Made by a program: the position numbers and the translations under genes
Shown here: positions 564 through 25,738 of the stretch, in pieces
How positions within the stretch are numbered: the stretch's first letter is position 1
Layout: the number at the start of each line of letters is the position of its first letter
Virus record (IMG/VR): IMGVR_UViG_3300047089_000122
Location: 1 to 27,165 of that record
DNA from: a virus
Length of the DNA stretch: 27,165 nucleotides
Reading direction: 5' to 3' (one strand)
The notes under the pieces: generated by a model
The model's input: the letters and a program-made list of their open reading frames with translations, nothing else
Databases searched by the model: none
Told to the model about the DNA's origin: nothing

Positions 564-2102
564 TTATCCGTTCGTGATGTTCGTGATCACCCCGAAGGCA
601 AACGGGGCAAAACACTGGAGCACTTCGTCGGCATAGACGCCGTACTCATAGCGCCGCTTCACGACCGGCCATTCGATCTGGTAATAGTCACGCCGCGTCC
701 GCACCTGCAGGACGTTCCCGACGTTCGAGATCGGGTAGGGCAAGGCGCTTGAATAGAACGCCATCGTGCCCGGCGGCATCGTCGGATGGATCTCGATCTT
801 CACCTGATAGTTGGTGATCTTATTCAAGTAGGAGCCGAGCACGGCCCCGGCATCGAACGTGGTCACGCCCTTCTTCTCCGCATCGATGTTGAAGCGGAAG
901 AGGGGGGCGGATCCGCCCGCGATGATCTTTTTATTGACGTTCAGCAGCTCTTGCGCGTTCATGAAGATCGTATCCGGCGAGAGCCGGTACAAGTTCCAGA
1001 ACTGCGCAAAGGCCGCATCGATTTCGGTGATCCCGCCGGCACCGTCTGCGGTGAGCGCGGTCCCGGTTCCAGGAGTGCCGGTGGCCAGGGCCTTCACATA
1101 GGCACCGGATGAGCCTTTATTGATCTGCGTGAGCAGACCGTCGAACACCAGGGCGTTCGTGCTCTGATCGGTCGCCGGCATCGACGCGGCGGTCTGCGCA
1201 CCGGCGGCGTTCGCAATGATCGACACGCTGTTGATCGTGGTGATCGCGCCGAGCACTTCGGCTCCGGCGGTCGCCCAGTACCAGGCATAGCCCACGGCGT
1301 TCGCCACGGCGGGCACGGTCGCGCCACAGGATCCGTTCGGGCCGGTGATGGAAGCGGTTTGTGCGGCAGACTTCCGCGCGGCGCCCCCGCCATACACATC
1401 CACGGTGCCGTCGGTATTCGTGCGGGATATCGAGGCCGGGACGACTGCCGAGGCAATGTTCACCGACTGCCCGACGAATCCGTTGTTCGCACCGGCGACG
1501 GCCCAATAGGCGTCGTAGCCCAACGCAATACAGATCACGCTCAGGGTTTGGGTCGCGAGCGTCCCGCCCGAGGCCGAGGCGACCATGGTTGGGGTGGGTG
1601 TGGTGCCCAGCAGCACGCTGGTATTCCCACCCAGGATCACGTTCTCCTCCGCGATCATCGTGGAGCGCAGGAGACCTTCCACGGCGATGCTCTTGATGTC
1701 TTCAAAATTCTCCGCCGCATAGTCGGCTTCGAATGTCACGTAGTCTTCCAGCCCGATCCCGCGATAGGCGGCGAAATAATCGGCGGTTGTGCTCACGATC
1801 GCGCCGCCTCGGTTGCCGCCGGAGACGCCAGGGGAGAGCATCCCGGTGTTCACACCGGTCACGGCTTTCCAGTTCGCTTGAATGCCGCCCTTGCCGCTCA
1901 CACGCGGGATCCGGTTCCGCAGCGGGGTGAGGACCGGATAGAGCTTCTTGCTGGGCGCCTCAAGGTCGTAGGCGGTGATCCCGGTCGTAGCCGAGCCCGA
2001 CTGGGTCCAGGCCTTCGCCAGATCCTGTGCCTTGTTCAGGTCGAGGTTGGGATTGATCGACCGGAGCAGCTCGACGGTTTGCTGGATCATCGCTGCGTTC
2101 AT
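564..2102 (-). CDS. Major capsid protein (HK97-fold type, with tandem Ig-like insertion)
   Basis: 512 aa, from an ATG preceded by AAGGAGAG. The protein would form the icosahedral head shell. The call rests on its place directly after protease/scaffold, portal and terminase genes, on its length, and on C-terminal features usual for such proteins (IFMNAQELLNVNKKI around 400, then RTRRDYYQIEWPVVKRRYEYG near the end, given here only as a location cue). Residues about 165-315 look inserted and contain two similar segments, ALGYDAYWAVAGA (193-205) and AVGYAWYWATAGA (269-281), each followed by a strand-rich tail, suggesting two Ig-like surface domains. There is a long stem-loop directly upstream. 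The family assignment is firm in role; the insertion's function is inferred. Confidence 0.88.
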   Translation of the reverse strand: MNAAMIQQTVELLRSINPNLDLNKAQDLAKAWTQSGSATTGITAYDLEAPSKKLYPVLTPLRNRIPRVSGKGGIQANWKAVTGVNTGMLSPGVSGGNRGGAIVSTTADYFAAYRGIGLEDYVTFEADYAAENFEDIKSIAVEGLLRSTMIAEENVILGGNTSVLLGTTPTPTMVASASGGTLATQTLSVICIALGYDAYWAVAGANNGFVGQSVNIASAVVPASISRTNTDGTVDVYGGGAARKSAAQTASITGPNGSCGATVPAVANAVGYAWYWATAGAEVLGAITTINSVSIIANAAGAQTAASMPATDQSTNALVFDGLLTQINKGSSGAYVKALATGTPGTGTALTADGAGGITEIDAAFAQFWNLYRLSPDTIFMNAQELLNVNKKIIAGGSAPLFRFNIDAEKKGVTTFDAGAVLGSYLNKITNYQVKIEIHPTMPPGTMAFYSSALPYPISNVGNVLQVRTRRDYYQIEWPVVKRRYEYGVYADEVLQCFAPFAFGVITNITNG

Positions 2103-2126
2103 GGGGGCTCTCCTTGGTTAAAAACA

Positions 2127-2167
2127 AAAGGCCACGCCAGGGAGCGGTCTCCCCACGCGTGGCCTTT
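2127..2167 (-). terminator. Long stem-loop with U-rich tail before the capsid gene
   Basis: Arms at 2127-2137 and 2157-2167 pair perfectly over 11 bp (AAAGGCCACGC with GCGTGGCCTTT). Inside, GGGAG (2140-2144) pairs with CTCCC (2149-2153) around a four-base loop. Reading leftward, the stem is followed by TTTTGTTTTT, as in an intrinsic terminator. It lies between the protease/tiny-ORF pair and the capsid gene, where a leaky terminator or RNA-stability element could adjust transcript levels. A near copy is at 25225-25269. Confidence 0.75.
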
Positions 2168-2188
2168 GTCCGTGTGATCGGTGTAGGC

Positions 2189-2284
2189 TTATTTCTTCAA
2201 CAGCTCGTGGATCTTCTTCTTGAACCCCTCCAGAATCTTCAGCATCTCGATGAGCAATGCGCGCTCATCAGGGGAGAACGCCAT
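2189..2284 (-). CDS. Tiny helical protein (31 aa) before the capsid stem-loop
   Basis: The ATG at 2284 directly follows the TAG stop of the protease gene, so translation would be by coupling. The product is one predicted amphipathic, lysine-rich helix ending KKKIHELLKK. Its second half, KILEGFKKKIHELL, matches the tiny ORF at 25288-25344 (TILEGLKRKIETLL). Both ORFs sit immediately before the same type of stem-loop. Function unknown. It could be a small scaffold-like or regulatory peptide, or a leader whose translation affects the hairpin. Expression is not proven. Confidence 0.55.
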   Translation of the reverse strand: MAFSPDERALLIEMLKILEGFKKKIHELLKK

Positions 2285-2881
2285 CTAGGCCGCCGGCTGC
2301 ATGTACGGGATGGGCTTGCTGTGCGCGGCCTTGATCAAATCATTCGCGGTCGCAGTCGCCGGATCGAGTGCTTTCTTGTCCACGCCTCCGCCGTCCTCTT
2401 CCTTCGTCACCGCGCGGGTGTTGCCTTTGCCTGCCGCCGGCTGCTTCTCCAAGGTCTCGATGCGTTTCGCGAGCGCGGTGTTGGCGTTCGCGAGCTTCGT
2501 GATCTCGCCGGTCAAGGTGGTCAACAGATCATTCGTCTTTTTCTGCAGCTCGCCCGACTTCTGGGCCATCGCCATGGCGTCATCCTTCTGCGCGGTCGCA
2601 TCGGCATCGGTCGCCGCTGCGCCTGTATCACTGGCCCCGGTATCGCCGCCGGCAGTCGTGGCGTTGCTTGCATCGCCATCCGCCAGGGTCTTCATCTCGC
2701 CGAGGCTCATGCTGTTCAGGGCATCCAGAAGGGCCATCATGGGTTTCTTGACATTCTTCGGCACCCCGCCGTCTTCGCTCATTTCCTCGAGCGTAGACAT
2801 CAGCGTATGGACGTCATCCGGGGAGACCTTCGCGAGTACGCTCACCTTAAGTAACGCAGGGCCCAGGGTTGTCTTGGACAT
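2285..2881 (-). CDS. Nested scaffold protein from internal start (putative)
   Basis: Inside the protease gene and in the same frame, an ATG at 2881 (residue 168 of the long form) is preceded by GGGAGAG with 5 bases of spacing. That is much better than any signal at the outer start. It falls at the border between protease and scaffold parts and would give a 198-aa scaffold alone, starting MSKTTLGPALLKV. The arrangement is like lambda C/Nu3, where the scaffold is the C-terminal part of the protease gene made from an internal start. Initiation here is inferred from sequence only. Confidence 0.6.
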   Translation of the reverse strand: MSKTTLGPALLKVSVLAKVSPDDVHTLMSTLEEMSEDGGVPKNVKKPMMALLDALNSMSLGEMKTLADGDASNATTAGGDTGASDTGAAATDADATAQKDDAMAMAQKSGELQKKTNDLLTTLTGEITKLANANTALAKRIETLEKQPAAGKGNTRAVTKEEDGGGVDKKALDPATATANDLIKAAHSKPIPYMQPAA

Positions 2882-3382
2882 GGCAGCTCTCCCTTGTGTT
2901 TGGAATTTTCTGAACTCGACGGCGCCGCCGTCCTTGATCATTTGAAAGAGCGCGGTCGGGATGCAGGGCGCATCGACGAGCGAGCCTTCGGAGGGATTCG
3001 CCACATAGCGCGTGAGGTCTCCGTCCGGCCACTGCTTCACATATTTGCCGCCGATCGAGAAGCCGGTATAGACGCCCTCGGTGACCTTCTTCCATTCGGC
3101 GGGATCGACGACCTTCGCGCCGACGTGAATCATTTTGTTGGCATCGTCATACTGGAAATCGATGAACTTGCCAGCGGCCACGGAGCCGTGCATCGCGCGC
3201 AGGTTGCCCAGGCTCTTGCCGTCGGTGACCTTCTCGAAGTGCTCGTTCCATTTTTCAAAATAGGGTTTGCTCAGCGCGTAGTCGAAGATCTCGTTCGAGC
3301 TGTCGGGGATTTCTGCGGCGAGGACGCCCCACACTTCTTGCTTGGTGGCGTCCACTTTCGTGAGCGGGACAATCAGCTGCAT
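2285..3382 (-). CDS. Prohead serine protease fused to scaffold (XkdF-like)
   Basis: 365 aa from the ATG at 3382. GTG codons at 3391 and 3403 are alternatives and none has a clear ribosome binding site. Residues 1 to about 160 resemble the XkdF-type phage protease: EVWGVLAAEIPDSSNEIFDY, then a His in RAMHGS (about residue 65) and a Ser in TGFSIGG (about 109), which are the likely catalytic pair. The rest is scaffold-like: an acidic, Ala/Thr/Asp-rich linker and a coiled-coil segment with LQKKTNDLLTTL and LANANTALAKRIETLEKQ. Such proteins guide capsid assembly and then cleave the scaffold and themselves. The gene lies between MuF and the capsid gene as expected. Confidence 0.82.
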   Translation of the reverse strand: MQLIVPLTKVDATKQEVWGVLAAEIPDSSNEIFDYALSKPYFEKWNEHFEKVTDGKSLGNLRAMHGSVAAGKFIDFQYDDANKMIHVGAKVVDPAEWKKVTEGVYTGFSIGGKYVKQWPDGDLTRYVANPSEGSLVDAPCIPTALFQMIKDGGAVEFRKFQTQGRAAMSKTTLGPALLKVSVLAKVSPDDVHTLMSTLEEMSEDGGVPKNVKKPMMALLDALNSMSLGEMKTLADGDASNATTAGGDTGASDTGAAATDADATAQKDDAMAMAQKSGELQKKTNDLLTTLTGEITKLANANTALAKRIETLEKQPAAGKGNTRAVTKEEDGGGVDKKALDPATATANDLIKAAHSKPIPYMQPAA

Positions 3383-3440
3383 GGTCGGCACGGTACAGCG
3401 CACCGCAGGCCGAGGCTAGGACGAACGAATACCAACGGGA

Positions 3441-11182: not shown

Positions 11183-11353
11183 TTATTTGTCGCCATAATC
11201 TTCACCTTCAGGCAGGCCCATCTCTCTGTCTGCATCATCCGACAACGCCTGATCGTCCTCTTCATTGCGGATCGATTGGTTGGGATGATAGCCAGGTTTC
11301 AATTTCTTGTTCGTGCTGCTCGCTGGTGTTTGTCCATGTCCAAATCTACTCAT
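11183..11353 (-). CDS. Small acidic protein (56 aa), unknown
   Basis: The ATG at 11353 overlaps the stop of the gene before it (ATGA) and has AAGGAGAG 5 bases upstream, within that gene's last codons. The product starts MSRFGHGQTPASSTNKKLKP and ends with an acidic stretch containing EEDDQALSDDADREM. It is too short and polar to assign. Good ribosome binding site and coupling support expression. Confidence 0.65.
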   Translation of the reverse strand: MSRFGHGQTPASSTNKKLKPGYHPNQSIRNEEDDQALSDDADREMGLPEGEDYGDK

Positions 11354-11589
11354 CTCGCCTCTCCTTCCCTCGGCGGCGTGGCGGGCGGCTTAATCAACTT
11401 CTCTTTCATCGGGGCCATCAGATCAATTAATTGCTTGAACCGCTTCCGTTCGTACCAGTGTGCGCGTTCATCCTCATTCATCGGTTTAACGATGGCCAAT
11501 TCCTCATCTGTCAAAAGGAAATATCGACTCTTCTCGCTATCCAGCAATTCATCCCAAGAACGTAAGTCATGCGGTCGTTCACTATTCAT
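11350..11589 (-). CDS. Small helical phage protein (79 aa), unknown
   Basis: The ATG at 11589 overlaps the preceding stop (ATGA), with GGGAGAG upstream. The open frame extends further but only as overlap with the upstream gene. The protein is charged and helical (MNSERPHDLRSWDELLDSEK, YERKRFKQLIDLM) and ends PPREGEAR. That ending is identical to the end of the next gene upstream, because both genes share a junction sequence that also contains the next ribosome binding site. Function unknown. Confidence 0.7.
   Translation of the reverse strand: MNSERPHDLRSWDELLDSEKSRYFLLTDEELAIVKPMNEDERAHWYERKRFKQLIDLMAPMKEKLIKPPATPPREGEAR
11351..11389. repeat. Repeated gene-junction sequence, copy 1
   Basis: Bases 11351-11378 match 11587-11614 closely (CATCTCGCCTCTCC, one T/C difference, then CCCTCGGCGGCG). 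Bases 11372-11388 match 11164-11180 exactly (GGCGGCGTGGCGGGCGG). On the coding strand it holds the end of one gene (PPREGEAR), the ribosome binding site and the ATGA overlap of the next. Confidence 0.8.
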
Positions 11590-11942
11590 CTCGCCTCTCC
11601 CTCCCTCGGCGGCGCGATGGCCTGCGAGGACCATTCGCCCGGCAGTTCATCTATAAATAACGCGACGGTTCCAATGTTGTGCGTCTCCATCGTGAACACC
11701 TCTGATTTCTGTATGTGCGACTGGGAAATGTTCAAGACCGTTGCCTTCCTGTCTTTACTGAAGCGCCACCAGTACCATCCAGGAACCGTGGGTTTGTTAG
11801 TGGTCCAGGTCATGGGAGGCTCGCCCTTTAGGTAAAGTTCGCTACAGTGTGCTCCCTGATGATTCAACGGAAGTGCACAGAACCATTCCTCTTGGCCGTT
11901 CGCCGGATCAGCATATTCAATATAAGGACATTGCTTGTTCAC
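11586..11942 (-). CDS. Phage protein (118 aa) with PGWYWWR motif, unknown
   Basis: The GTG at 11942 follows AGGGGA that includes the stop of the preceding gene. The first 40 residues contain CPYIEY, WFCALPLNHQGAHC, a Cys/His set that may bind zinc. The second half has PTVPGWYWWRFSKDRKATVL and VALFIDELPGEW, a form seen in small phage proteins of unknown function. The C-terminus is the shared PPREGEAR. An ATG at residue 43 could start a separate shorter product, but it has only a weak signal. Confidence 0.7.
   Translation of the reverse strand: MNKQCPYIEYADPANGQEEWFCALPLNHQGAHCSELYLKGEPPMTWTTNKPTVPGWYWWRFSKDRKATVLNISQSHIQKSEVFTMETHNIGTVALFIDELPGEWSSQAIAPPREGEAR
11587..11614. repeat. Repeated gene-junction sequence, copy 2
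   Basis: This copy of the 28-base junction differs from 11351-11378 at one position. It codes the end of the 118-aa gene and carries the ribosome binding site and overlapping ATGA start of the 79-aa gene. Confidence 0.8.
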
Positions 11943-21165: not shown

Positions 21166-21246
21166 GCCACCACTACGTAAGCGATTCGATGACAGAGACT
21201 TGGCCTCATACGAATGGGGGCTAGTCTCGACATTATACCACTGCCT

Positions 21247-22083
21247 ATGATGACGCGCATGGATTTTCACGAATTGAGCCAGTCCTATTTAGACAATCAT
21301 CTGCGACAGCAAGTGACATATCGGGCCTACTGCCGGATCCACCGTCAATTCTTTTCCAGCTGGACCGAGCATCCGACCCGTCCTGAAATCAAAGCCTGGC
21401 ATGTCACGCAGGCCGCACACGCCGCCCATGCGAACAAAGGATTAGGATACCTCAAGGCGCTGTACAATTGGGCGATGAACGATGGCACCTGGACGGCGGC
21501 CAATCCCGCACTCGGCATTCGACGCCACAAAACCTACAGCCGCGAGAGGGTGATGGATCACCGAGAACTCGCCGCTCTCCTCAATGGCCTGCCGATGCTC
21601 AATCAAAAATATCAGGCCTGGTTCACCTGTCGACTGTTGGTCCCCTGCCGGATTAAAGAACTGTGTCAGATGCGCCGTGATGACGTGAGCCCCTATGGGA
21701 AGTGGACGAAGCGCACGACCAAGAATGGCCGACCTCACACGGTCCACGTTCCGCAGCAAGCGTTGGAGCGATTGCAGTCGCTCCCCGATGAAGGGCCCTA
21801 TTTCTTCATGGGACAATATGGACATCCATTGACGGAAGGGGCTGTGCGAAAAATCTGGACTCGATGGCGGGCGGAATTGGGATTACAGGATCTGTGGCTC
21901 TTAGATTATCGGCGCACACTCGCTACCTATCTCTACCGCGTCATGAAGGTGGATGATCTCACGGCTAAGGCGATCCTCAATCACTACGACAGCCGGCCGG
22001 TGGCGATCTATACACGGCTCGACTATGAATACCTCGCCACCATCATTCAGGGTTATGCGGATTGGATCATGAAACGTCTCTAA
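21247..22083 (+). CDS. int: Tyrosine recombinase (integrase)
   Basis: 278 aa from ATG 21247; ATGs at 21214, 21250 and 21259 are alternatives and none has a clear ribosome binding site. N-terminal SAM-like core-binding domain (residues ~5-95), then catalytic domain. Arg135 (VPCRIKELC), Lys159 (TTKNGRPH), Arg222 (LLDYRRTLAT), His246 (ILNHYD) and Tyr255 (VAIYTR) give the active set. Box II normally reads HxxR; here Leu219 is in place of His. It would integrate the phage at the host tRNA-Pro gene next to the att site at 21116-21165. Confidence 0.92.
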   Translation: MMTRMDFHELSQSYLDNHLRQQVTYRAYCRIHRQFFSSWTEHPTRPEIKAWHVTQAAHAAHANKGLGYLKALYNWAMNDGTWTAANPALGIRRHKTYSRERVMDHRELAALLNGLPMLNQKYQAWFTCRLLVPCRIKELCQMRRDDVSPYGKWTKRTTKNGRPHTVHVPQQALERLQSLPDEGPYFFMGQYGHPLTEGAVRKIWTRWRAELGLQDLWLLDYRRTLATYLYRVMKVDDLTAKAILNHYDSRPVAIYTRLDYEYLATIIQGYADWIMKRL

Positions 22084-23281: not shown

Positions 23282-24421
23282 TTAGAGGATCGAGGTCTGG
23301 TTGATCGTCATGGTCGCACGTACCGTCTGCGGTTTGGTCTGCGCGCAGCGCACGGTCAGGGGCAGGGTCTTCGCACAGCGCACGGTGAAGACGTCGACCA
23401 GGCCGAGCCGTGCCGGACTCGCATAGGCCATCTCGGCATCGATGATGAGCGGGGGCACCGTCGTGCCGTGATAACTCGGCACCCACCAGAGATCCTCGTC
23501 GAGAAAGAAATTCTTGGCCCCAGGGAGCGCGTCGTCCTCGGTCTGTGGCAGGCGCAGCGCCCAGGTTTGGACCATCGGGCCCAACACTGCCCAGAACTCC
23601 ACATCGACAATACTGGACGCTGGCGGGGCCAGGTCGTCGCTGTCCATGATCGCTTGCCGCACCATCGACTGACTGAAGGCCAGAGAGGCGAGCGCGACAT
23701 CTTCATCCAGCGCGAAGTTGGCCGCATTCGGCAGCACCTCATCGTCGGTGAAGGCTGGGAACGGCGGCAGCATCGGCCAGATTGTGACGCGCAGCCAGAG
23801 CTCGTCTTCACCGGAGAATCCTGAAGATGGTGTGGGCCAGACATCCTCATCGGTCGTGCTGGGAACCAATGGGAGCCGCCCGAGGGCCATCCCACTAACG
23901 GACCAGAGATCCTCATCGAGAAAGAAGTTCGCGGCCCCTGGCAGTATCTCGTCATCGGTGATGGCTTGGAGCGGGAGGAGGTAGCCGCGATACGATGGCA
24001 GCCACCAGAGATCCTCATCCACAAAGAAGTTCTTGGCGTTCGGCAGCGTTTCATCGTCAAGGATCGCAGGGGCCGGAGGACTGACCGGCCAGGTGACCAG
24101 CCGCAGCCAGAGGTCGTCCTCCATCTGCGCCGGCGCGACGAACGGCACGCGCTCATCGGTATCGAGGAACGGCGGACGATTGGTCAGGAAGACCTGCTGT
24201 GGATTCACCCACCAGGCTTCATGCTCGAGCGCGAAGTTCTTGGCGTTGGGGAGCACATTCTCATCGGAGAGGAAGGCTTGCGGAGGGATCGGAGGCGTGA
24301 GCAGCAGCGGGTTAATCCACCACTGTTCATATTCGAGAAAGAAGTTCTTGGCGTTCGGGAGGGATTCGTCGTCGAGGAAGGGACCGAGCCGAGGGGGACG
24401 TGGCACCAGAATCAGAATCAC
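23282..24421 (-). CDS. Nine-repeat acidic virion-region protein (379 aa)
   Basis: GTG start at 24421, preceded by GAGGAGGGG with 6-base spacing. Residues 15 to about 325 are nine copies of a ~35-residue unit of the form F-x-DDE-x-LPNAKNFFLDEDLWW; some copies are worn (e.g. DTDERVP, SDDLAPPASS). The unit has a conserved acidic head, NAxNF and DEDLWW. The C-terminus has two TVRCA-type units (FTVRCAKTLPL, TVRCAQTKPQ) and a third without Cys (TVRATMT). Such periodicity suggests a rod or solenoid that binds a metal or a partner. Not recognised as a named family. It is in the tail part of the late operon, so a tail-fibre-associated role is the best guess. Confidence 0.7.
   Translation of the reverse strand: MILILVPRPPRLGPFLDDESLPNAKNFFLEYEQWWINPLLLTPPIPPQAFLSDENVLPNAKNFALEHEAWWVNPQQVFLTNRPPFLDTDERVPFVAPAQMEDDLWLRLVTWPVSPPAPAILDDETLPNAKNFFVDEDLWWLPSYRGYLLPLQAITDDEILPGAANFFLDEDLWSVSGMALGRLPLVPSTTDEDVWPTPSSGFSGEDELWLRVTIWPMLPPFPAFTDDEVLPNAANFALDEDVALASLAFSQSMVRQAIMDSDDLAPPASSIVDVEFWAVLGPMVQTWALRLPQTEDDALPGAKNFFLDEDLWWVPSYHGTTVPPLIIDAEMAYASPARLGLVDVFTVRCAKTLPLTVRCAQTKPQTVRATMTINQTSIL
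23447..24379 (-). repeat. Tandem coding repeats, period ~105 bases
   Basis: Nine copies of about 35 codons. The best-kept copies (1, 2, 4, 5, 7 and 9) share LPNAKNFF- or LPGAKNFF-like cores. At the DNA level ATCCTCGTC(or A)...AAGAAGTTCTTGGC blocks recur near 23501, 23921, 24021, 24221 and 24341. Drift in copies 3, 6 and 8 indicates an old expansion. Confidence 0.85.
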
Positions 24422-24626: not shown

Positions 24627-24706
24627 GATGGACTCTCCTTGGATAAATATAGGTACAAGGCACGGCAGCCGCCCCACTGTGAGACGGCTGCCAGCATCCG
24701 TTCGGA

Positions 24707-25201
24707 TTACTCTTGGAATTCCAGGTTGGCCTCGTAATTCATCGAGACCGTGCCGCTCGCCACGAACAGATCGAGCGACTGTGTCGCCGAGCCTTCCAGC
24801 ACTTTCATCGAGTCGGGATTGGCCGCGACCCATCCACCCGGTCCTGCGGCGCCTGAAACGCAACCGCATTGCAGTGTCGGTCCGCCGGTGCCGGGGGTGA
24901 TCGCCGCGGCGAGTGTCGCGGACCATCCTGCGGTGGCTTTGCAGGCTTGTGCGCCGGGATCGGATGGCGCAGGCGTGGCAGCGGTGCCCCCTGATCCTGC
25001 CGTGGTCGTCCATTTCTTAATGCGATAGGCGATCCCGGAGAGCGCGGTCAAGCCCGCCCCTTTGCCTCCGACGATCAGGGCCTGGAGCGCAATGTTGCGC
25101 GTGCCTGGCTTGAGAAACGCCTGCTCGGTTTCGGTGTTCGCCGTGCCGTTCGTCTGATAGTTTTCCAGCGTGGACTTCGACATCAATGTATAGACAAACA
25201 T
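24707..25201 (-). CDS. Putative structural (tail or decoration) protein (164 aa)
   Basis: ATG at 25201 with AAGGAGGG. Sequence MFVYTLMSKSTLENYQTNGT, then a beta-rich body with a Gly/Ala/Pro-rich insert (AGSGGTAATPAPSDPG) and the end SMNYEANLEFQE. A stem-loop and tiny ORF like those before the capsid gene stand upstream, which suggests a product needed in quantity, perhaps a tube, decoration or fibre-base protein. Family not recognised. Confidence 0.65.
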   Translation of the reverse strand: MFVYTLMSKSTLENYQTNGTANTETEQAFLKPGTRNIALQALIVGGKGAGLTALSGIAYRIKKWTTTAGSGGTAATPAPSDPGAQACKATAGWSATLAAAITPGTGGPTLQCGCVSGAAGPGGWVAANPDSMKVLEGSATQSLDLFVASGTVSMNYEANLEFQE

Positions 25202-25224
25202 AAGACCCTCCTTGATGAGAAAAT

Positions 25225-25269
25225 GACAAGGCCACGCCAGGAGCTGCTCTCCCCTGCGTGGCCTTTGTC
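25225..25269 (-). terminator. Stem-loop, near copy of the one before the capsid gene
   Basis: Arms 25225-25237 and 25256-25269 pair (GACAAGGCCACGC with GCGTGGCCTTTGTC, one bulged A), with an inner GGAG/CTCC pairing. It shares GGCCACGCCAG and GCGTGGCCTTTGTCC with 2131-2171. On the minus strand the tail is only modestly T-rich, so it may act as a weak terminator or an RNA-stability element. Confidence 0.7.
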
Positions 25270-25287
25270 CGGTGTAACTGGGTTAGG

Positions 25288-25344
25288 CTATCGTGTCAGT
25301 AAGGTTTCAATCTTCCGTTTCAGTCCCTCCAGAATGGTGCGCAC
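25288..25344 (-). CDS. Tiny ORF (18 aa), homologue of the 2189-2284 ORF
   Basis: GTG at 25344 with GGAG 5 bases upstream. Product MRTILEGLKRKIETLLTR matches the C-terminal half of the 31-aa ORF. The bases after its stop also match. It has lost, or never had, the N-terminal part present in the other copy. Possibly a degenerate copy or a leader peptide. Confidence 0.4.
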   Translation of the reverse strand: MRTILEGLKRKIETLLTR

Positions 25345-25354
25345 GTCAGCTCCG

Positions 25355-25738
25355 TCATGATCGAATCGGCGACTCCTTCAAGAGTGTCGCGATGGGATTG
25401 CACGACGCCTCGCCCAGCGTCTGCATCTCCGCCGTCGTGAGAAACCGGCCGTAGCGTTCCATCTGCTCCTGCTGCACTTTCTGCCAGAACACTTCATCCG
25501 GCATGGCGCCGAGTCCATATTGCGGCCCCCACTGTTCGGCACAGGGAGAATCACAGAGCCAAATCGCAAAAGTGCAATTCTCCTCCGGCACATAGGCGCC
25601 GAGCTTCCCGCAGTTCGCGCAGAAGAGGGGGACCATGTTGAGGAATCCCCAGGTGGCGAACTGCATACGGATCGCGCCCTTGGAATCCTTCAGCCGGCTA
25701 TCCGGCAAGATGTCAAATGTCGAGTCGTTGAGATCCAT
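25355..25738 (-). CDS. Cys-rich tail-region protein (127 aa), unknown
   Basis: The ATG at 25738 follows directly on the TAA of the fibre-like gene (TAAATG), so coupling is likely. FCANCGKLGAYVPEENC and then CDSPCAEQW suggest a zinc site (CxxC ... CxxxC). The rest is helical (PDEVFWQKVQQEQMERYGRF). Function unknown; its place within tail genes suggests a tail assembly or fibre-chaperone part. Confidence 0.7.
   Translation of the reverse strand: MDLNDSTFDILPDSRLKDSKGAIRMQFATWGFLNMVPLFCANCGKLGAYVPEENCTFAIWLCDSPCAEQWGPQYGLGAMPDEVFWQKVQQEQMERYGRFLTTAEMQTLGEASCNPIATLLKESPIRS

Follow-up and report, generated by a model that had tools for sequence, protein, structure and literature searches.

This phage carries the same small unit in front of two of its genes, the major capsid protein (MCP) gene and a gene that we call P0004: a tiny ORF, followed by a stable hairpin and, directly after it, the downstream gene's ribosome site. 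Our preferred reading, to which we give a probability of roughly 0.55, is that each copy is a hairpin of the intrinsic-terminator type joined to the next gene's ribosome site, and that it segments the late operon. Hairpins recur at the boundaries before the MCP, post-MCP, presumed MTP and TMP genes of relatives, and the arrangement looks like a recurrent, little-described mode of late-operon splitting.

Two copies of one unit

The window, that is, the whole 27,165-base stretch of DNA analysed, is a linear IMG/VR record whose late genes lie on the minus strand in the order terminase, portal, Mu-F-like, protease/scaffold, copy A unit and MCP. The features that concern the two units are as follows.

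2285-3403, minus strand: head maturation protease/scaffold-like gene, 372 aa, upstream of copy A; weak XkdF-type match
2189-2284, minus strand: copy A tiny ORF, 31 aa, MAFSPDERALLIEMLKILEGFKKKIHELLKK; ATG directly after the protease stop
2127-2167, minus strand: copy A hairpin, 41 nt, two stacked stems, predicted at -30.5 kcal/mol
2110-2126, minus strand: copy A U-tract (about 2126-2120) and Shine-Dalgarno (SD) sequence AAGGAG (2115-2110)
564-2102, minus strand: MCP gene, 512 aa, phrog_13692; 27% identity to annotated Arthrobacter phage MCPs
522-545, minus strand: hairpin behind the MCP gene, GGCGGCGCGC/GCGUGCCGCC, lacking a good U-tract
25355-25738, minus strand: 127-aa gene before copy B; close relatives were looked for and none found
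25288-25344, minus strand: copy B short frame, 18 aa from GTG, MRTILEGLKRKIETLLTR; SD GGAG 5 nt ahead of the GTG
25225-25269, minus strand: copy B hairpin, with the outer arms of copy A and a stem lengthened by GACAA/UUGUC
25208-25213, minus strand: copy B SD AAGGAG
24707-25201, minus strand: P0004, 164 aa, gene after copy B; no known family
24664-24692, minus strand: hairpin behind P0004, GGCAGCCG/CGGCUGCC, then a further AAGGAGAG ribosome site

The 512-aa product matches phrog_13692 over its full length in a profile search (E 8e-157, residues 4-510) and, judged from its sequence, is the MCP. The protease stop codon at 2285-2287 abuts the start of the copy A ORF, which is separated by a 21 nt spacer from a hairpin with outer stem AAAGGCCACGC/GCGUGGCCUUU and inner stem GGGGAG/CUCCCU. 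The U-tract UUUUGUUUUU follows the stem directly, as an intrinsic terminator requires, and the MCP ATG, at 2102, lies 24 nt from the hairpin. The earlier note had described just such a unit before the capsid gene (a 31-aa ORF, a spacer, a two-part stem-loop and the MCP start), and the coordinates and the predicted fold on the minus strand bear it out. A search for sigma-70-like sites gave none on the minus strand between positions 1 and 19999; because of this, and because only 24 nt separate the hairpin from the ATG, the MCP gene is probably reached by read-through.

Copy B repeats the order of copy A, with a short frame (GTG at 25344, stop at 25288), hairpin, SD and start codon, the last being the P0004 ATG at 25201. 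Using copy A as the query against the whole record recovered copy B (E 1.9e-10, with 79% of the hairpin part identical), so that the recurrence of the unit at 25225-25344, as first proposed, stands. The copy B hairpin is predicted at -26.5 kcal/mol and its U-tract is weaker and displaced (UUGUCAUUUUCUC); a stable GC-rich stem-loop, as in an intrinsic terminator, is found in both copies, and both leaders are more stable than their dinucleotide shuffles (z -3.4 and -3.6). With the additional hairpins behind both genes, MCP and P0004 are each flanked by hairpins on both sides.

The outer arms of the two hairpins are identical at 16/16 and 13/13 bases (29/29, with the CGGAC before the stem counted in), and this identity makes covariation between A and B uninformative. 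A chance resemblance between terminators, which the earlier note had named as a possible refutation, is excluded by the identical arms together with the spacer and peptide end that both copies have in common. The match between the peptides is more limited than had been thought: they do share a C-terminal end, but the copy B peptide has 18 residues, not 31, and matches only from 'ILEG' onwards. Within that end 9 of 15 residues are kept, most of the remaining changes are mild, and 19 of 45 bases differ. Its BLOSUM score of 43 is matched by an equal number of random substitutions with P 5e-5, or, with the first 9 bases (identical in both copies) excluded, with P 4e-5 to 6e-4 according to the substitution model (transition bias varied), values that are somewhat flattering in that the segment and frame were picked for their match. 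The remaining two frames of the segment contain stop codons in at least one copy. Since the amino acids are kept despite so many base changes and the other frames are interrupted, the peptide end is probably translated at both sites.

Beside the hairpin, 19 of the 36 bases that make up codons 4-15 have changed, against none of 29 in the outer arms, which suggests either that the hairpin has been held more tightly than the peptide end or that recombination has made its copies equal again. Such arm identity exceeds the need of a generic terminator, and with two copies in one genome it may reflect either recent homogenisation or a requirement for the sequence itself. The hairpin and the tiny-ORF end are duplicated at the two boundaries; the direction in which they were copied we infer. 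Elsewhere in the window, two neighbouring reading frames share a similar 44-nt end encoding ...PPREGEAR (11346-11389 and 11582-11625), a pair that, to go by this likeness, is another copied gene end.

The earlier note had taken the genes behind both copies to be structural. For P0004 this was not upheld: it has no Pfam family and only a sub-threshold PHROG match, no relative was found and it is absent from the 45 relative records searched, and its AlphaFold model, made with no alignment, is too poor for use (mean pLDDT 33). Also on the minus strand lies a gene (23282-24421) for a 379-aa protein with repeated units like LPNAKNFFLDEDLWW, which matches no known family. On the plus strand an integrase-like reading frame, judged by eye, occupies 21214-22083, with the rightmost genes on one side of it and the early genes on the other, and the window breaks off just past the MCP gene; this order suggests a circular or concatemeric phage genome whose tail module is missing here, and not an integrated prophage.

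Hairpins before late genes in relatives

The tiny ORF has no homologue in phage records or in the 45 relative records, and scanning 2.9 million viral contigs for sequence patterns recovered no ORF-hairpin pair. The exact hairpin arms gave 16 matches in those contigs, none with the peptide; a back-translated peptide pattern gave six, all rejected as a different protein. No Rfam family reached its curated threshold at the unit, the top sub-threshold score being 20.9 against 44.2 bits. Among the viruses searched, the tiny ORF, the exact unit and P0004 are peculiar to this virus, while the architecture is shared with relatives. Conservation, which the earlier note had put forward as a check, thus holds for one part of the unit only: the peptide is absent from the relatives and from the contigs scanned, and a hairpin stands at the same place in many relatives, with unrelated stems. 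Because relatives carry the hairpin without the peptide, the position of the hairpin is a recurrent trait of the family, to which the tiny ORF has been added locally.

This distribution also bears on attenuation, which the earlier note had suggested and in which translation of the tiny ORF would decide whether the terminator forms. The order of short ORF, spacer, terminator and downstream gene, with a conserved peptide end, is what a leader-peptide attenuator would present. Against it, the best competing upstream duplex reaches only -14.2 (A) and -12.1 (B) kcal/mol, far from the stability of either hairpin, the ORF stops about 20 nt ahead of the stem, which is therefore left free, a run of regulatory codons is absent, and relatives have the hairpin without the peptide; we consider attenuation extremely improbable. 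Setting expression through RNA processing or partial termination would be the most sensible role.

For a count by gene class we used the loci that encode MCP relatives, 80 viral and 63 from bacterial genomes (143 in all). Profiles were made for nine neighbouring gene classes, start codons were assigned, and the 130-nt upstream regions were searched for a hairpin with a U/T-tract ending 10-40 nt ahead of the start codon. With classes named from PHROG and Pfam matches, this element precedes the MCP gene in 22/117 cases, the post-MCP gene in 20/66, the presumed MTP gene in 16/83 (named from its place between tail terminator and tape measure, phrog_8234 being without assigned function) and the TMP gene in 6/21. 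It is found before none of 103 gp6-like (head-tail adaptor) genes and before few gp10-like (neck; 2/84), tail terminator (1/88) and portal (2/48) genes, the protease class being intermediate (11/98). The paucity in the connector classes is explained in part by the overlap of most connector genes, which leaves no gap. Dinucleotide-shuffled leaders contained the element in 1.4-3.2% of cases, against 18-30% observed, and for MCP, post-MCP and MTP the sense strand is richer in it than the opposite strand. After MCPs were collapsed at 70% identity the counts were 13/32 (MCP), 10/21 and 10/26 (MTP), against 0/30 (gp6-like). Hairpins before MCP and MTP co-occur (8, 3, 2, 13; p 0.004 after clustering), and about 80% of relatives have no detectable hairpin before MCP. 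A Chromobacterium haemolyticum prophage (L099) is one relative that carries both. A broader comparison made earlier, of MCP-upstream regions with all gaps, had given 29% against 17%, a contrast that is small because the control gaps took in those before MTP, post-MCP and TMP; the class-by-class count replaces it.

Stem sequences differ between lineages, but the leaders share a strikingly similar form: they run from stem to U-run, often CATTT or ATTTT, then GGAG and ATG. The stem lies about 22 nt (median) from the ATG, T accounts on average for 6 of the first 10 nt, and 36 of 38 MCP and MTP cases have an SD. Nine loci (L006, L012, L016, L017, L023, L034, L045, L052 and L074) have terminator-like hairpins about 20 nt from the ATG of the presumed MTP gene (phrog_8234), and several of these have one before the tape measure gene as well. 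In several MCP leaders the hairpins are in tandem, one lying 20-30 nt past the protease stop and the other 18-23 nt ahead of the ATG. In L007, L009, L061, L068, L117, L130, L142 and L157, self-BLAST shows that the pre-MCP gap also contains repeats, either dispersed and REP-like or in tandem. In the literature searched, from which subscription journals were mostly absent, no paper was found that describes hairpins set before MCP and MTP.

Hairpins in relatives also lie close to the upstream stop (medians of 21-30 nt after it, in gaps of 60-100 nt), and since this distance too is short, distance to the ATG fails to separate the models cleanly. The unit could be a moron-like cassette, a small gene copied with its own ordinary terminator, whose closeness to the next ribosome site would reflect compaction and have no downstream role. 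The position of the hairpins, some 20 nt past the upstream stop, fits this, as do the strong U-tract of copy A, the coding constraint on the peptide and the apparent terminators at these spots in Bergeriella phage L034, which we take to be of DUS type. We nevertheless regard such a cassette as rather unlikely, given that relatives carry the hairpin without any tiny gene, that some have tandem hairpins with one near each end of the gap, and that hairpins are concentrated at certain genes.

The uniform order hairpin-UUUUU-GGAG-ATG seen among relatives, and the copy A tail UUUUGUUUUUAACCAAGGAG, would equally suit a hairpin and U-rich tail acting mainly as a translation element for the downstream gene. 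The layout of the unit, with hairpin, U-rich stretch and strong SD before a capsid gene, is presumably like that of the T7 gene 10 leader, a resemblance of layout only. The T7 gene 10 ribosome site is described as an SD boosted by an upstream enhancer element (PMC8748333). In both copies here the SD is predicted to be partly paired, and a U-tract behind a GC stem is just as much a requirement of a terminator; that translation is the main function seems to us unlikely.

Invariant-loop hairpins in alphaproteobacterial relatives

The MCP leaders of alphaproteobacterial and some other relatives hold, instead, the motif CCGGRGACGG, a CCG-GRGA-CGG hairpin, which was not found in the 27,165-base window. 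It occurs in 52 sense and 2 antisense copies in 1.89 Mb, up to three in tandem and most of them 25-320 nt upstream of MCP (loci L026, L036, L065, L116, L053, L064, L067, L131, L015, L031, L044, L061 and others). Bases flanking the invariant GRGA loop, which is of GNRA type, pair in 82% of cells against 68% in shuffles, and the outer stem has a covariation score of 0.324 against 0.111 when shuffled (0/500 as high; slid controls at most 0.178), with extension pairs at background level beyond four. In host genomes the motif is only slightly commoner than its reversed control. The hairpin has no match in Rfam, and these tandem pre-capsid hairpins matter as a candidate new RNA element.

Covarying hairpins with an invariant loop at the same place in another branch of the family give some substance to the idea that in our phage, too, the hairpin is a sequence-specific RNA site read by a protein of the phage, perhaps even the tiny peptide, which is cationic, and that the site serves two late genes as an antiterminator or an operator of translation. 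The outer arms, unchanged beside half-diverged codons, and the joint travel of peptide and hairpin are in keeping with it. With two copies in one genome, however, recent gene conversion would look alike, and the charge of the peptide is modest; we judge a protein-read site to be very unlikely.

Proposed segmentation of the late operon

Late-operon boundaries of a comparable kind have been described in other phages. The late gene clusters of SPP1 are delimited by predicted stem-loop terminators, one of them right after the capsid gene (PMC6316719), and in the T7-like phage LUZ100 control of the MCP gene lies with a local promoter and with a terminator downstream of it (PMC10134795); this kind of device is thus already known. 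The hairpins described here resemble the intrinsic (Rho-independent) terminators of SPP1 in having a GC-rich stem and then a U-tract at late-gene boundaries, but differ in standing directly before the capsid ribosome site, in being tied to particular genes across the family and, in this phage, in having been copied along with a tiny ORF. As in LUZ100, the capsid gene would be separated from the remaining late transcript, whereas here there is neither room for a promoter nor a match to one between hairpin and gene. Leader-peptide attenuators likewise have a short ORF ahead of a terminator-like hairpin; unlike them, the unit has no antiterminator alternative and no regulatory codons, and its ORF is not conserved with the hairpin.

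Under segmentation, the small ORF ahead of each hairpin would be translated, and the hairpin would mark a gene boundary within the late polycistronic RNA. The boundary would be leaky, with a fraction of polymerases stopping or pausing there. In processed or read-through transcripts the hairpin would protect the 3' end of the upstream message, and it would also provide the capsid message with a structured border at its 5' end, next to a U-rich landing site that stays open to ribosomes. MCP and P0004 could in this way be set apart from their neighbours and each expressed at its own level, and in this phage the hairpin and the tiny-ORF end were copied between boundaries. Several points weigh against segmentation. 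A terminator before the most-needed protein seems counter-productive unless it is leaky or bypassed; the U-tract of copy B is weak; some four-fifths of relatives lack a detectable hairpin, and the protease class is not clearly hairpin-poor (11/98); and full identity of the outer arms beside half-diverged codons surpasses what a generic terminator requires.

A broader proposal is that hairpins and ribosome sites together form tags by which, across the family, the genes of the most abundant virion proteins are individually expressed, and which here would be sequence-specific and act with the co-travelling tiny peptide and which, in the alphaproteobacterial branch, would take the form of a tandem GNRA-type hairpin that is likely read by a protein; we hold this to be quite unlikely.

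In summary, tailed phages have to produce capsid and tail-tube proteins from one long operon in hundreds of copies per portal or connector, and the way in which siphophages set such ratios without local promoters is poorly described. Since an element of hairpin, U-tract and SD recurs at capsid and tail genes and is hardly ever seen at connector genes, this question of ratios can be tested in cultured relatives.
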